Source: a virus. From it: a DNA stretch of 34,097 nt. The position numbers and the translations under genes were made by a program. The DNA lies in the IMG/VR virus record IMGVR_UViG_3300006128_000663, positions 1 through 34,097 of that record, one strand, 5' to 3'. How positions within the stretch are numbered: position 1 is the stretch's first letter; each line of letters opens with the position of its first letter. The notes beneath the pieces are model-generated. The model made no database searches and was not told the DNA's origin. It saw nothing but the letters and a program-made list of their open reading frames with translations. Positions 536-18,761 of this stretch are shown here, piece by piece.

Positions 536-1084
536 ATGGCAGAACAAGAAGACTATATCGACAAGAATAACATCCACTTATTCATGGACGGCTTTAGTAA
601 TAAAAACGTAAAACCTGTTATCGAATGGATATTAAACAAGAACTTAATGCCAACCCAAGAACGTCCCAAGTATCTTACACTAGTAATTAACAGTCCGGGC
701 GGAGAAATGCACAGTGCATTTGCTCTGATCGACACTATGAAGGGCAGTAAAATTCCAATCCATACCATCGGACTTGGTATGATTGCCAGTTGCGGATTGC
801 TCACATTTATGGCCGGAGAACCGGGACATAGAACCATAACTCCAAATACCAGCATACTAAGCCATCAATACTCATGGGGCTCATACGGTAAAGAACATGA
901 ACTGATGTCACGAGTCAGAGAGTTCGAACTGTCCACTGAACGCATGATGGATCTGTATAAGAAATGTACAGGAATGAGTGAAAAAGACATTCGCAAGTGG
1001 TTGTTACCACCTGAGGATATTTGGTTAAGTGCTAAAGAAGCTGTCAAACACGGAATTGCTGACAAGATCAAGGAAATGTATTGA
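536..1084 (+). CDS. ClpP-like serine peptidase
   Basis: 182 residues, close to the size of mature ClpP. The catalytic triad of the ClpP/crotonase fold can be placed: Ser85 in GMIASCG, His110 in ILSHQ and Asp161 in PEDIWLSA, with the oxyanion-loop motif NSPGG at 52-56 and the C-terminal KHGIADKI in the position of the usual YGLVD. I chose ATG 536 because GGAG sits five bases upstream and the family begins near here; an in-frame ATG at 497 has no ribosome site. It is divergent from bacterial ClpP, for example SCG in place of SMG around the nucleophile. Phage copies may act as stand-alone peptidases, in head maturation, or together with host Clp ATPases; no ATPase gene is visible here. The fold is sure, the target unknown. 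Confidence 0.85.
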   Translation: MAEQEDYIDKNNIHLFMDGFSNKNVKPVIEWILNKNLMPTQERPKYLTLVINSPGGEMHSAFALIDTMKGSKIPIHTIGLGMIASCGLLTFMAGEPGHRTITPNTSILSHQYSWGSYGKEHELMSRVREFELSTERMMDLYKKCTGMSEKDIRKWLLPPEDIWLSAKEAVKHGIADKIKEMY

Positions 1085-1109
1085 CCTTTGGTTGCTATGA
1101 TTTTATATT
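1081..1109 (+). promoter_or_regulatory. Sigma70-type promoter for the tRNA-Gly
   Basis: TTGACC (1081-1086), 17-base spacer, TATATT (1104-1109), ending 10 bases before the tRNA. The -35 box overlaps the stop codon of the ClpP-like gene. Confidence 0.5.
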
Positions 1110-1119
1110 ATAGCATTAG

Positions 1120-1218
1120 GCGGAGGTAGCTCAGTGGTAGAGCTTCTGCTTGCCTCAGGACATCAAGGTGTCTTGAATAAGCAGAAGGTCGTGGGTTCGA
1201 ACCCCATTCTCCGCTCCA
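1120..1218 (+). tRNA. tRNA-Gly(GCC) with a 24-nt insertion in the anticodon loop
   Basis: All arms of a tRNA can be folded. The acceptor is GCGGAGG with TCTCCGC (one G-U pair); the D arm is AGCTC...GAGC; the anticodon stem is TCTGC (1145-1149) with GCAGA (1181-1185); the variable loop is AGGTC; the T arm is GTGGG-TTCGAAC-CCCAT. U73 followed by an encoded CCA (1216-1218) fits glycine. The anticodon loop, however, is 31 nt (1150-1180) instead of 7. Removing 24 nt after GCC leaves TTGCCAA, the normal tRNA-Gly(GCC) loop. The insert folds by itself: TCAGGACA (1155-1162) pairs with TGTCTTGA (1169-1176) around TCAAGG. It is far too short for a group I intron. It may be a tiny intron, an inactivated tRNA or an altered RNA with another role. 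Confidence 0.8.
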
Positions 1219-10944: not shown

Positions 10945-11021
10945 GCCCCCGTAGCTCAGCTGAATAGAGCGTCTCGTTTCTACCGAGAATGTCGGGAGTT
11001 TGAATCTCTCCGGGGGCTCCA
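10945..11021 (+). tRNA. tRNA-Arg(UCU)
   Basis: 77 nt with CCA encoded (11019-11021). Acceptor GCCCCCG with CGGGGGC pairs fully; D arm GCTC...GAGC; anticodon stem TCTCG with CGAGA around the 7-base loop TTTCTAC, giving anticodon TCT for AGA codons; variable loop ATGTC; T arm GGGAG-TTTGAAT-CTCTC with one G-U pair. Two details are unusual: U as discriminator base, and TTTGAAT rather than TTCGAAT in the T loop. AGA is likely to be frequent in this AT-rich genome, so the tRNA may help translate phage genes. Confidence 0.92.
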
Positions 11022-16034: not shown

Positions 16035-18761
16035 ATGCGTTTATTTGAAGTTTTTGATGCAACTCCGGTGAAGCTTATCAATGAAGGTGGTAATTTAGAA
16101 TTACCAGGCGGTCATGTAGCTGATTCTATCAATTTAAAAGTTCACGACAGATCATTCATTGTGCCTGTGCTTGAAAAACTGTTGAATAACATCAATGCTG
16201 CATATGCCAAAGCATATAATAAACCATTATGGTCATCTACTCTTCTAAAGAGTGGTAAGTTTCTAAGCGGTAGCAGTTTGCATTTCTTCAATACCAATAT
16301 ACCAGACAATGAGTTTGTCAAAGTAAAACCAAAGGTCGGTGATATTGATACACAAGTAAACAAAGCAGACGAAGAAAAGTTAGAAAAATTCCTAGAAAAA
16401 ATTCAAGGTAAGAAATTGGGCAATGCTAAATTCTTGGGATTTAAAAGAGGTAATGAACAATTCAGTAGTTTATGGGAGTTATCAACCCCGCCTCTTAAAA
16501 TTCAAATTGATTTAGAATTTGTTTCATACGAACGAGGTAAACCAACATCTTGGGCACAGTTTAGTCACAGCAGTAGTTGGGATGACATACAAGCGGGTAT
16601 CAAAGGTGTATTTCACAAATATGTTATTCAAAGTTTCTCATCACTTACAAAACAAGATTTTTTGTTAAGAAAGATGGTTGGTAGAGGCAAAGCAAGAACA
16701 TTACAAGATGTACCTGCTACTGATAATATGGTTAGTTTTGCTGTGAGCAGCAAAGAAGGCGGCGGATTAAGACAAAAATATGAGCCTGTTATTGATCCTG
16801 TTACAAAAAAGCCGTTGATAAAAGACGGTTTACCAGTGTTAACAGCAAGACCTACAGAGGGGTATGATCAAAGTCTAGCAGGTATATTCAGCAAACTATT
16901 TGGAAAAAAACTTAGTCATGCATTGTTTGAAAAACTCAGTGAAAAATTCTGGAGTTTTAAAGGCCTACTTGAAGTCATGAACTTGCTGTTGGATAACAAC
17001 GAAAAACAACGTGTAGTTGATTCGTTCACAGACAAGCTATTTGGTAAAGGTGCACAGGGTTTATACAAAGGCGATCCTGATCGCGATATCAAGGAAAAAA
17101 TAGTTGCTTTAAGAGTCATGTTAGAAACTCTAGACATGACAGAGCCAAGTGATCTAAAACAAAAAGTAAAAGATTACAAAGCATCATATAAGGTATTAGA
17201 TGAAGCTGATGCACCGAACTATGCTCGTCAAGGTATCAAACACATTTATAATCCCGGTTCTAGCACTGAAATGAAGGATGCTGATTTTTTAGAGTTAGTA
17301 AATGAAATTCATGCCAATGGTGGTAACCTAGATGGTTTTCCTATCAGTCTCAAAGTAGATGGTGCTGGTATTAGATTTGGTAAAGATGAAAATGGTCGTG
17401 CTTTTTTGATGACTTCTCGAGTTATCAAACCTTTATATGCAGAAAATGTCGGCGACTTTGAGAAGTACGGGAAGAGTGTGGGTCAAACTGACGAACAACT
17501 TGCTAGAACACGCAATTACGATCGTGCGTTAGACACTATTGTAAACAGCGATTGGATACAGAAACTACCTAAGGACACTATTGTACAAGCAGAAATGTTG
17601 TACAATCCCATGGCAGAAAAAACTGCAAATGGTTTAAAGTTTGTTAATATATCATACGACCCGAAAAAACTAGGGTCAACTATGACACTTGTACCAATCA
17701 GCTTCCGTAGATACAGTACAGGTGATGTATTACCTAATGCAAATGAAATAAAAGACATGCTATTAAAGAGCAGCACTTCTGCAATTAAATTTGTCAATAG
17801 TGATCTTAAACAAGCTAAAATAGACGTTAGTAAAATTATAGATCCAGTTGTTAAAATGGGAACAGAATTAAGAACAGCATTAGGATCGCGTAAGAAAGAT
17901 GATCCTCTTAAAGCAAAGGCAAAAGATATTCTTACACAAGTTAGGAAAGCACTTTCGGATGCAATTATCCATAATCCAAATCTTGTGGGCAAAGAACAAT
18001 TGGGTAAAAACCTAGAAGGCATAGTTATTAAAATGCCAAGTGGTATGTTAGTAAAAGTTACAAGTTCTGACATGCAAGATATTATGGCCGCAAAAAAGGC
18101 GGCAGCACCTAGAACGGGTAGCAATCGTATAAAGCCTGCAGTGGTTACAGTTGGTAGCTTTGTTGGTCATATCGGTCATCAACATTTGGTTAACCTAGTT
18201 CTACAAAAAGCCAAAAAGGTTGGTGGTGATCCCTACGTTTATATCAGTCCCAAAGTTGGTCCAGATGACCCATTCCCACCTCAGGTAAAATTAGAAACTT
18301 GGAAAAAACTATATCCAGAACATGCAAGTATGTTTCAAATTATAGCGGCTCCGGATGGCAGCCCATCCACTCCTATGAAAAAAATTGAAAAAGATTTAGT
18401 ATTACCCAAAACCAGTCCCTACAATAAAATCATCCTTATGGTAGGGGAAGATCGTTATGATAGTTTCAAGACATGGATAGAAACTCTTGAAAAGCGCATG
18501 AAAGATCCTGCTGCTCTAGCAAAGTTTGGTGGCACACAGGATCAAGTTAGTTATGAAGTAATAGGTATACCACGTAGCAAAGAAAACGGCGGCACTGATA
18601 TGAGCTTTACTGAACTACGCAATGTTCTTAAAAATCCCAATGCAACGGACGGACAAAAACTAGCAGTATGGGAAAAAGGATTCGATGTTAAGAAACTGGG
18701 AGTTCCTTATATCAAACATTTAATGGCAATTGCTGAAAAAAACATGGGGATAACAAAATGA
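16035..18761 (+). CDS. Fusion: pol-beta-like nucleotidyltransferase + KxDG ligase-like + HxGH nucleotidylyltransferase
   Basis: 908 residues. The leader MRLFEVFDATPVKLINEGGN has INE as a possible prohead-protease site. Domain 1 (about 25-250) has polymerase-beta nucleotidyltransferase signatures: Gly79-Ser80, GDID with Asp103/Asp105, and the third acid Asp159 in IQIDLEF. Domain 2 (about 385-690) looks like an ATP-dependent ligase: KVDG at 440-443 (adenylated Lys440), LEGIVIK (660-666, motif IV) and VKV (673-675, like motif V). Domain 3 (about 700-908) has the HIGH motif (712-715) of the CoaD/NadM family and a late SFTELR resembling ISSTxxR. Together these suggest nucleic-acid end repair or nucleotide/NAD chemistry. 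A late box lies upstream; ATGA couples it to the next gene. Confidence 0.75.
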   Translation: MRLFEVFDATPVKLINEGGNLELPGGHVADSINLKVHDRSFIVPVLEKLLNNINAAYAKAYNKPLWSSTLLKSGKFLSGSSLHFFNTNIPDNEFVKVKPKVGDIDTQVNKADEEKLEKFLEKIQGKKLGNAKFLGFKRGNEQFSSLWELSTPPLKIQIDLEFVSYERGKPTSWAQFSHSSSWDDIQAGIKGVFHKYVIQSFSSLTKQDFLLRKMVGRGKARTLQDVPATDNMVSFAVSSKEGGGLRQKYEPVIDPVTKKPLIKDGLPVLTARPTEGYDQSLAGIFSKLFGKKLSHALFEKLSEKFWSFKGLLEVMNLLLDNNEKQRVVDSFTDKLFGKGAQGLYKGDPDRDIKEKIVALRVMLETLDMTEPSDLKQKVKDYKASYKVLDEADAPNYARQGIKHIYNPGSSTEMKDADFLELVNEIHANGGNLDGFPISLKVDGAGIRFGKDENGRAFLMTSRVIKPLYAENVGDFEKYGKSVGQTDEQLARTRNYDRALDTIVNSDWIQKLPKDTIVQAEMLYNPMAEKTANGLKFVNISYDPKKLGSTMTLVPISFRRYSTGDVLPNANEIKDMLLKSSTSAIKFVNSDLKQAKIDVSKIIDPVVKMGTELRTALGSRKKDDPLKAKAKDILTQVRKALSDAIIHNPNLVGKEQLGKNLEGIVIKMPSGMLVKVTSSDMQDIMAAKKAAAPRTGSNRIKPAVVTVGSFVGHIGHQHLVNLVLQKAKKVGGDPYVYISPKVGPDDPFPPQVKLETWKKLYPEHASMFQIIAAPDGSPSTPMKKIEKDLVLPKTSPYNKIILMVGEDRYDSFKTWIETLEKRMKDPAALAKFGGTQDQVSYEVIGIPRSKENGGTDMSFTELRNVLKNPNATDGQKLAVWEKGFDVKKLGVPYIKHLMAIAEKNMGITK

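Follow-up and report, generated by a model that had tools for sequence, protein, structure and literature searches.

A hairpin insertion in the anticodon loop of a phage tRNA-Gly gene as a probable miniature enzyme-spliced intron

Introduction

In the accepted view, tRNA introns of bacteria and their phages are group I introns that splice themselves, and the splicing of tRNA introns by proteins is a feature of archaea and eukaryotes (PMC3400036). Here we analyse a tRNA-Gly(GCC) gene in a virus record of 34,097 bases (IMG/VR record IMGVR_UViG_3300006128_000663, analysed over its whole length and called the window below), whose anticodon loop is interrupted by a 24-nucleotide (nt) insert at positions 1155-1178. 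We propose that this insert is probably a short enzyme-spliced tRNA intron, which would be excised by a staggered cut of the RNase III kind and whose exons would be resealed by an ATP-dependent phage RNA ligase.

Four described systems come closest. Group I introns have a conserved catalytic core and are typically hundreds of nucleotides long; like them, the inserts studied here break up the anticodon loop of tRNAs in bacteria or phages, but they are 24-28 nt in length rather than large self-splicing ribozymes, and the window has no Rfam group I match. The bulge-helix-bulge (BHB) introns cut by EndA or TSEN in archaea and eukaryotes share with them a length of tens of nucleotides, a place beside the anticodon in the loop, pairing within an extended anticodon arm and, presumably, removal by two cuts and a ligation. 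However, the phage insert stands after position 36 and not at the canonical 37/38, forms no bulge-helix-bulge, and occurs in phages in which no EndA was found and which carry ATP-dependent Rnl-type ligases rather than RtcB. In the T4 Pnkp/Rnl1 repair system, a tRNA cut by a host anticodon nuclease is mended; a broken anticodon loop would be joined here as well, and Rnl1, kinase and phosphatase genes are present in one related contig (L002), but the cut would be a programmed double one that removes an encoded intron. Bacterial RNase III processing is, to our knowledge, not followed by exon ligation into a tRNA, which is what we propose here for a helix shorter than the classical site. RNase III processing of hairpins otherwise offers a close parallel, with a two-base stagger and 3'-OH/5'-phosphate ends (PMC8708148).

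Results

The original prediction of a tRNA-Gly(GCC) with intact arms, U73 and CCA is confirmed by direct reading (Table 1) and by the Rfam tRNA model RF00005, which matches coordinates 1120-1215 with 57.9 bits (gathering score 29, E 3.6e-10), close to the 60.5 bits of an ordinary tRNA-Arg(UCU) at 10945 of the window. By the usual criteria for a tRNA the cloverleaf is complete, with all stems, the GCC anticodon, U33 and CCA. Folded alone, the insert forms a 9-bp hairpin followed by two unpaired 3' nucleotides, so that sequence and fold both agree with the earlier description of a 22-nt hairpin plus two bases placed right after GCC. Without it the loop reads TTGCCAA, as had also been claimed; the same loop is present in the intron-less tRNA-Gly(GCC) of Rhodobacter phage RcXuper, to which the window exons are identical at 68 of 75 positions with no gap. 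ARAGORN, which misses the gene at 1120-1218 in its default mode (no introns) and with introns allowed reports a 24-nt intron but misplaces it and calls a tRNA-Ile, finds a normal 75-nt tRNA-Gly(gcc) when the 24 nt are removed and the exons joined. The GGT and GGC codons that a spliced tRNA-Gly(GCC) would read make up 231 of the 342 glycine codons in the long open reading frames (ORFs) of the window. The precursor as a whole has a folding energy of -43.8 kcal/mol (z -4.2 versus shuffles), and an uninterrupted stem as long as that of the insert arises in 193 of 100,000 shuffles of the 24 nt. Taken alone, the hairpin would be no more than suggestive, and the decision rests on comparative evidence. 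As for the promoter that had been claimed, a promoter-like site does lie directly upstream, but such a scan yields about one match per region by chance. On the opposite strand, a 124-amino acid (aa) ORF (1155-1529, -) overlaps the tRNA gene; it is not a gene, and its string ENGVRTHDLLL is what the antisense strand of a tRNA usually gives when translated.

Scans of 2.9 million viral contigs provided the comparison. A pattern for tRNA-Gly(GCC) with an insert of 12-42 nt found the IMG/VR contigs L001 and L002, whose 24-nt insert occupies the site known from the window, and a pattern for the insert itself found L207 and L211, both of which belong to one further phage whose tRNA body is different; the 24-nt insert is hence seen at the identical site in four more contigs, which represent three further phages. 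The relatives carry TAAGCATATTAAGGTATGCTTAAT (L001) and TAAGCATATTAAGGTATGTTTAAT (L002), which are near-identical, and TGAAGACATTAAGGTGTCTTGAAT (L207). Window, L001, L002 and L207 align without gaps, and the hairpin loop motif AUNAAGGU is invariant in all four 24-nt sequences. Across this alignment 99.2% of cells are paired and nine pairs have changed on both sides, three of them in the intron hairpin (one A-U/C-G, one C-G/G-C and one C-G/U-A), a level that none of 500 shuffles reached and for which slid structures gave 0-1. In these four sequences covariation extends to the acceptor, D, anticodon and T stems, and selection therefore keeps the molecule a tRNA. Among these phages, about nine genes are common to the window and G003/G004, at near 50% identity, and 30 genes to G001 and G002, at 69%. 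Related phages thus do have the insert, with compensatory changes; its place, length and structure are kept in no fewer than three other phages, and an exact canonical tRNA is left when it is taken out, which favours the earlier suggestion of a new tRNA intron. These comparisons support the view that the insert is a conserved miniature tRNA intron in distantly related phages.

The same hairpin design occurs in other tRNAs. Outside the 24-nt glycine set the hairpin inserts measure 27-28 nt and stand in tRNA-Thr(UGU) and tRNA-Gly(GCC): an anticodon-blind pattern found two tRNA-Thr(UGU) genes with TGAATGTCTTTTTTGAGGACATTGAAC (L041) and TGAATGCTTTCTAAAGAGAGTATTGAAC (L090), and reading of full contigs without the intron pattern showed that the phage of L041 (G005) has a second intron tRNA, a tRNA-Gly(GCC) with the 28-nt TATGAGCATTTGACAAAGTGCTTATAAT (Rfam 49.0 bits). 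In the phage of L090, a tRNA-Asn(GUU) with U1-A72 and G73 (L256:10165-10271, -; 54.2 bits) has a 34-nt hairpin insert apparently after position 34. All seven hairpin introns (five in tRNA-Gly, including the near-identical pair, and two in tRNA-Thr) fold alone with no unpaired nucleotide at the 5' end and two at the 3' end. Insertion after position 36, a first base U, an AAY ending before A37 A38, these 0/2 ends and canonical joined exons are the features we propose for the class, and all were found. In each of the 13 candidate intron tRNAs the joined exons form a canonical tRNA, and those of L041 match an intron-less tRNA-Thr at 68 of 76 positions. In the four 24-nt glycine introns the loop AAGG could pair with CC of the anticodon, but the 28-nt glycine intron has the loop GACA, and we rejected this pairing as a general feature.

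The final general pattern, run on the 2.9 million contigs, recovered all the cases that the earlier patterns had found and few others; of the 90 stretches found by a threonine-motif scan only L041 and L090 were tRNAs, and the 105 stretches of the anticodon-blind scan were mostly ordinary type II tRNAs or tandem tRNAs. Viral loci retrieved for different purposes, 874 kb in all, contained 20 tRNAs, none with an intron, and no record of a cultured phage covered 80% of the window tRNA, the L041 tRNA or the tRNA-Gln of the phage G009 described below. Among bacterial genomes, one plausible case emerged from the general pattern, a tRNA-Arg(CCU) in a Phycisphaerales assembly (L223:7373-7472, -) whose 29-nt hairpin insert follows position 36; its family relatives are without the insert, and the gene lies at a contig end.

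A second design is found in G009 (IMGVR_UViG_3300037851_000141), a 331-kb contig with four intron tRNAs. Its three introns of minihelix shape have the common linker ATAGGAA: that of tRNA-Arg(UCU) reads GCGGAGA-linker-TTGGG TTCGAAT CCCAA-TCTCTGC-TCCA, that of tRNA-Gln(UUG) is 46 nt long and ends in ACCA, and that of tRNA-Thr(UGU) is 45 nt long and is without CCA. Intron position varies in this phage (after 34, 35 or 36), the exact splice phase having been chosen by tRNA identity. These introns look like possible substrates of RNase P and of 3'-end enzymes (RNase P/Z type), and such enzymes also leave 3'-OH and 5'-phosphate ends.

Some further tRNA-like genes were noted in passing. A tRNA-Cys(GCA) has a 21-nt anticodon-loop insert in two virus contigs (L077:6418-6512, -; L093:2109-2203, +). 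The cultured Aeromonas phages Ah1 (L004:1230-1348 and 1499-1620) and avDM12-TAAL (L005) each have two unannotated tRNA-like genes with inserts of about 40 nt in the anticodon region, one of which holds a nested T-arm sequence; they look unlike the hairpin design. Xanthomonas phage XacN1 has an unannotated tRNA-like gene (L306:30282-30387, Rfam 45.6 bits) with about 30 extra nucleotides in the anticodon region, in which a clean anticodon stem was not found, and the XacN1 tRNA array contains no clean intron tRNA. Its tRNAs for Lys, Gly, Thr, Cys and Asn (L306:30565-30651, 39053-39138, 42569-42659, 45202-45290 and 45979-46067) have long class-II-like variable arms, which is unusual for these five.

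Table 1. Coordinates and descriptions of the features discussed (window positions unless a contig is named).
Feature	Position	Strand	Description
Interrupted tRNA-Gly(GCC)	1120-1218	+	Read from the letters: GCGGAGG TA GCTC AGTGGTA GAGC T TCTGC TT GCC TCAGGACATCAAGGTGTCTTGAAT AA GCAGA AGGTC GTGGG TTCGAAC CCCAT TCTCCGC T CCA
5' exon	1120-1154	+	Acceptor 5' strand, D arm, anticodon stem 5' strand, U32 U33, anticodon GCC (1152-1154)
Intervening sequence	1155-1178	+	24 nt, TCAGGACATCAAGGTGTCTTGAAT, between position 36 (last anticodon base) and A37; from sequence, fold and covariation
Intron hairpin	1155-1176	+	Eight pairs (1155-1162 with 1169-1176) and a closing U-G pair (1163-1168) in the fold
Unpaired 3' AU of intron	1177-1178	+	2-nt 3' overhang; from the fold
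3' exon	1179-1218	+	A37 A38, anticodon stem 3' strand, variable loop, T arm, acceptor 3' strand, U73, encoded CCA
Junctions			Unspliced in the precursor: TTGCCTCAGG; predicted for the spliced RNA: TTGCC joined to AAGCAGA
Promoter-like site	1081-1109	+	TTGACC-17 nt-TATATT directly upstream of the tRNA gene; 10/12 consensus matches; weak
908-aa protein	16035-18761	+	Polymerase-beta-like nucleotidyltransferase motif GS...GDID from aa 79; ligase-type covalent nucleotidyltransferase domain; C-terminal cytidylyltransferase-like domain
Three intron tRNAs (Gln, Thr, Arg) of G009	L282:3007-3123, L282:17790-17908, L286:15593-15714	+	Anticodon-loop inserts of acceptor/T-arm minihelix shape
tRNA-Gly(UCC)-like gene of G009	L282:18848-18953	+	35-nt insert CGAGAA...TTCTCG-ACCA; absent among the matches above the Rfam threshold

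Discussion

We infer both the excision of the intron and its sealing by a phage ligase from the sequences described above. In the RNAfold prediction for the precursor, the anticodon stem is followed by the pairs U32-A38 and U33-A37, a G34-U pair, a CC/A internal loop and the nine-pair intron hairpin. The anticodon arm would accordingly be one long interrupted helix, with the intron hairpin prolonging the anticodon stem. An endonuclease would cut both strands at the CC/A internal loop with a two-base stagger, freeing the 22-nt hairpin and the 2-nt tail at its 3' end and leaving in the anticodon loop a nick between the 3'-OH of C36 and the 5'-phosphate of A37. A phage ATP-dependent RNA ligase of the Rnl1 or Rnl2 type would then close the nick and yield a functional tRNA-Gly(GCC) able to read GGC and GGU. 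The ends that RNase III leaves are those required by Rnl-type ATP-dependent phage RNA ligases (PMC7824862).

True RNA ligases are present in several of the phages. In G002 (contig L002), the genes for Rnl1 (1.6e-33), for a P-loop kinase that is a protein of its own and for a HAD phosphatase of the PNKP type lie near one another; an HNH-linked RNA_ligase was found in G005, an RNA_ligase in G006, and an Rnl2 with T4_Rnl2_C in G009. Second RNA_ligase matches in G005 and G006 are NAD-dependent DNA ligases by sequence and were excluded from the count given below. In the window itself, the 908-aa protein has the ligase motifs KVDG at aa 440 and, later, EGIVIK, and its homologue in G003, which is without the C-terminal domain, keeps KVDG and EGI. 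The protein has no Pfam match and its other family matches are weak; hhalign of its ligase-like domain against phage RNA ligases gave nothing. When a low-confidence model of this domain (predicted local distance difference test, pLDDT, 52) was compared with the PDB, DNA ligases, RNA ligases and capping enzymes appeared throughout the matches listed, none of which had an E-value below 0.001. We regard the protein as an unproven candidate for the end-joining enzyme of the window phage; it could be a repair enzyme instead.

The two-base stagger geometry of RNase III fits all seven hairpin introns, and an RNA ligase over the cut-off was found, by lineage, in 4 of 6 intron-bearing against 1 of 21 control contigs (Fisher p 0.004), a count resting on six lineages in which one of the four positives, G009, has the other intron design. 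Besides this limit, several observations weigh against enzymatic splicing of the proposed kind. The intron helix of 8-11 pairs is short for a classical RNase III site, the independent lineages are few and the records come from metagenomes. No RNA_ligase or Rnl1 family match was found in the window (a 34-kb fragment), G001, G003 or G004, the complete Rnl1/kinase/phosphatase set is present only in G002 (G004 has the phosphatase alone), and the ligase-like domain of the window is backed by its motifs and the low-confidence model. Finally, no phage-encoded RNase III was found and a host enzyme must therefore be assumed, host RNase III being the first, if doubtful, candidate.

Of the alternatives, an unlikely one retains the intron with another cutter: a metal-independent anticodon-loop nuclease of the host defence or toxin type would leave cyclic phosphate and 5'-OH ends, a T4-type kinase/phosphatase would heal them and Rnl1 would seal, so that the intron would be a by-product of phage tRNA repair. 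The Rnl1, kinase and PNKP-type phosphatase of G002 are the T4 tRNA-repair set (PMC3400036), and G004 has the phosphatase. However, the constant 2-nt 3' overhang and two coordinated cuts are left unexplained, and a PNKP-phosphatase match is absent from G005, G006 and G009 despite their ligases, as it is from the window fragment.

It is improbable that the insert is never removed and that the 99-nt RNA, with its tRNA-Gly shape, acts as a sponge, a decoy or a bait for anticodon nucleases. With an anticodon loop of 31 nt, decoding is not to be expected, which fits such a role, as does the invariance of the loop AUNAAGGU in the four 24-nt introns, but AAGG is missing from the glycine intron of G005. 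A decoy has no need of an insert whose removal restores, always and in several isoacceptors, an anticodon loop of exactly 7 nt, or of covariation in the acceptor, anticodon and T stems together with U73-CCA, and in the parts of G001 and G002 examined the intron gene is the only Gly(GCC) gene. Among the three ideas of the original prediction, the new tRNA intron is the best supported; a decoy or regulatory RNA and anticodon-nuclease evasion are conceivable as secondary roles, but nothing tested speaks for them.

A self-splicing or self-cleaving mini-ribozyme is highly improbable: hairpin and loop are conserved, but glycine and threonine introns share no conserved unpaired core, Rfam finds tRNA matches and no group I/II intron or ribozyme in the window, and 24 nt are too few for either, every self-splicing intron known to us being far longer. 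An archaeal- or eukaryotic-type intron cut by EndA at a bulge-helix-bulge motif would be similar in size (archaeal introns have 16-44 nt, PMC3400036) and nearly equal in position. This explanation is equally improbable and largely refuted, as the precursor fold has one CC/A internal loop instead of two 3-nt bulges around a 4-bp helix, and EndA (PF01974) was found in none of eight phage records (fragments) by a search that was positive in archaeal controls; RtcB was likewise not found in eight phage records, though a host RtcB is conceivable. An assembly error or decaying pseudogene, conceivable for a single fragmentary metagenomic contig, is the least probable of all, since all arms are intact and assembly error is ruled out by independent contigs from different metagenomes that carry the insert with compensatory changes.

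Returning to enzymatic splicing, we tentatively raise the wider possibility that phages have a tRNA-splicing pathway of their own, in which introns would mimic ordinary bacterial RNA-processing substrates, host enzymes would excise them and phage Rnl ligases would join the exons. Just as tentatively, such a pathway might cover both the hairpins with RNase III-like stagger in several phages and the RNase P/3'-end-enzyme minihelices, some CCA-ended, of one jumbo phage. In the open-access literature we found no description of short or protein-spliced tRNA introns in phages, and as far as we searched, the short hairpin intron class is new for bacteria and phages. Standard annotation overlooks such genes: ARAGORN without its intron option skips the window tRNA. 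If our interpretation is correct, these introns would represent a separate, EndA-free route to tRNA splicing in phages of which several also encode Rnl-type ligases, and phage RNA ligases would gain a role in splicing besides the repair of host damage.
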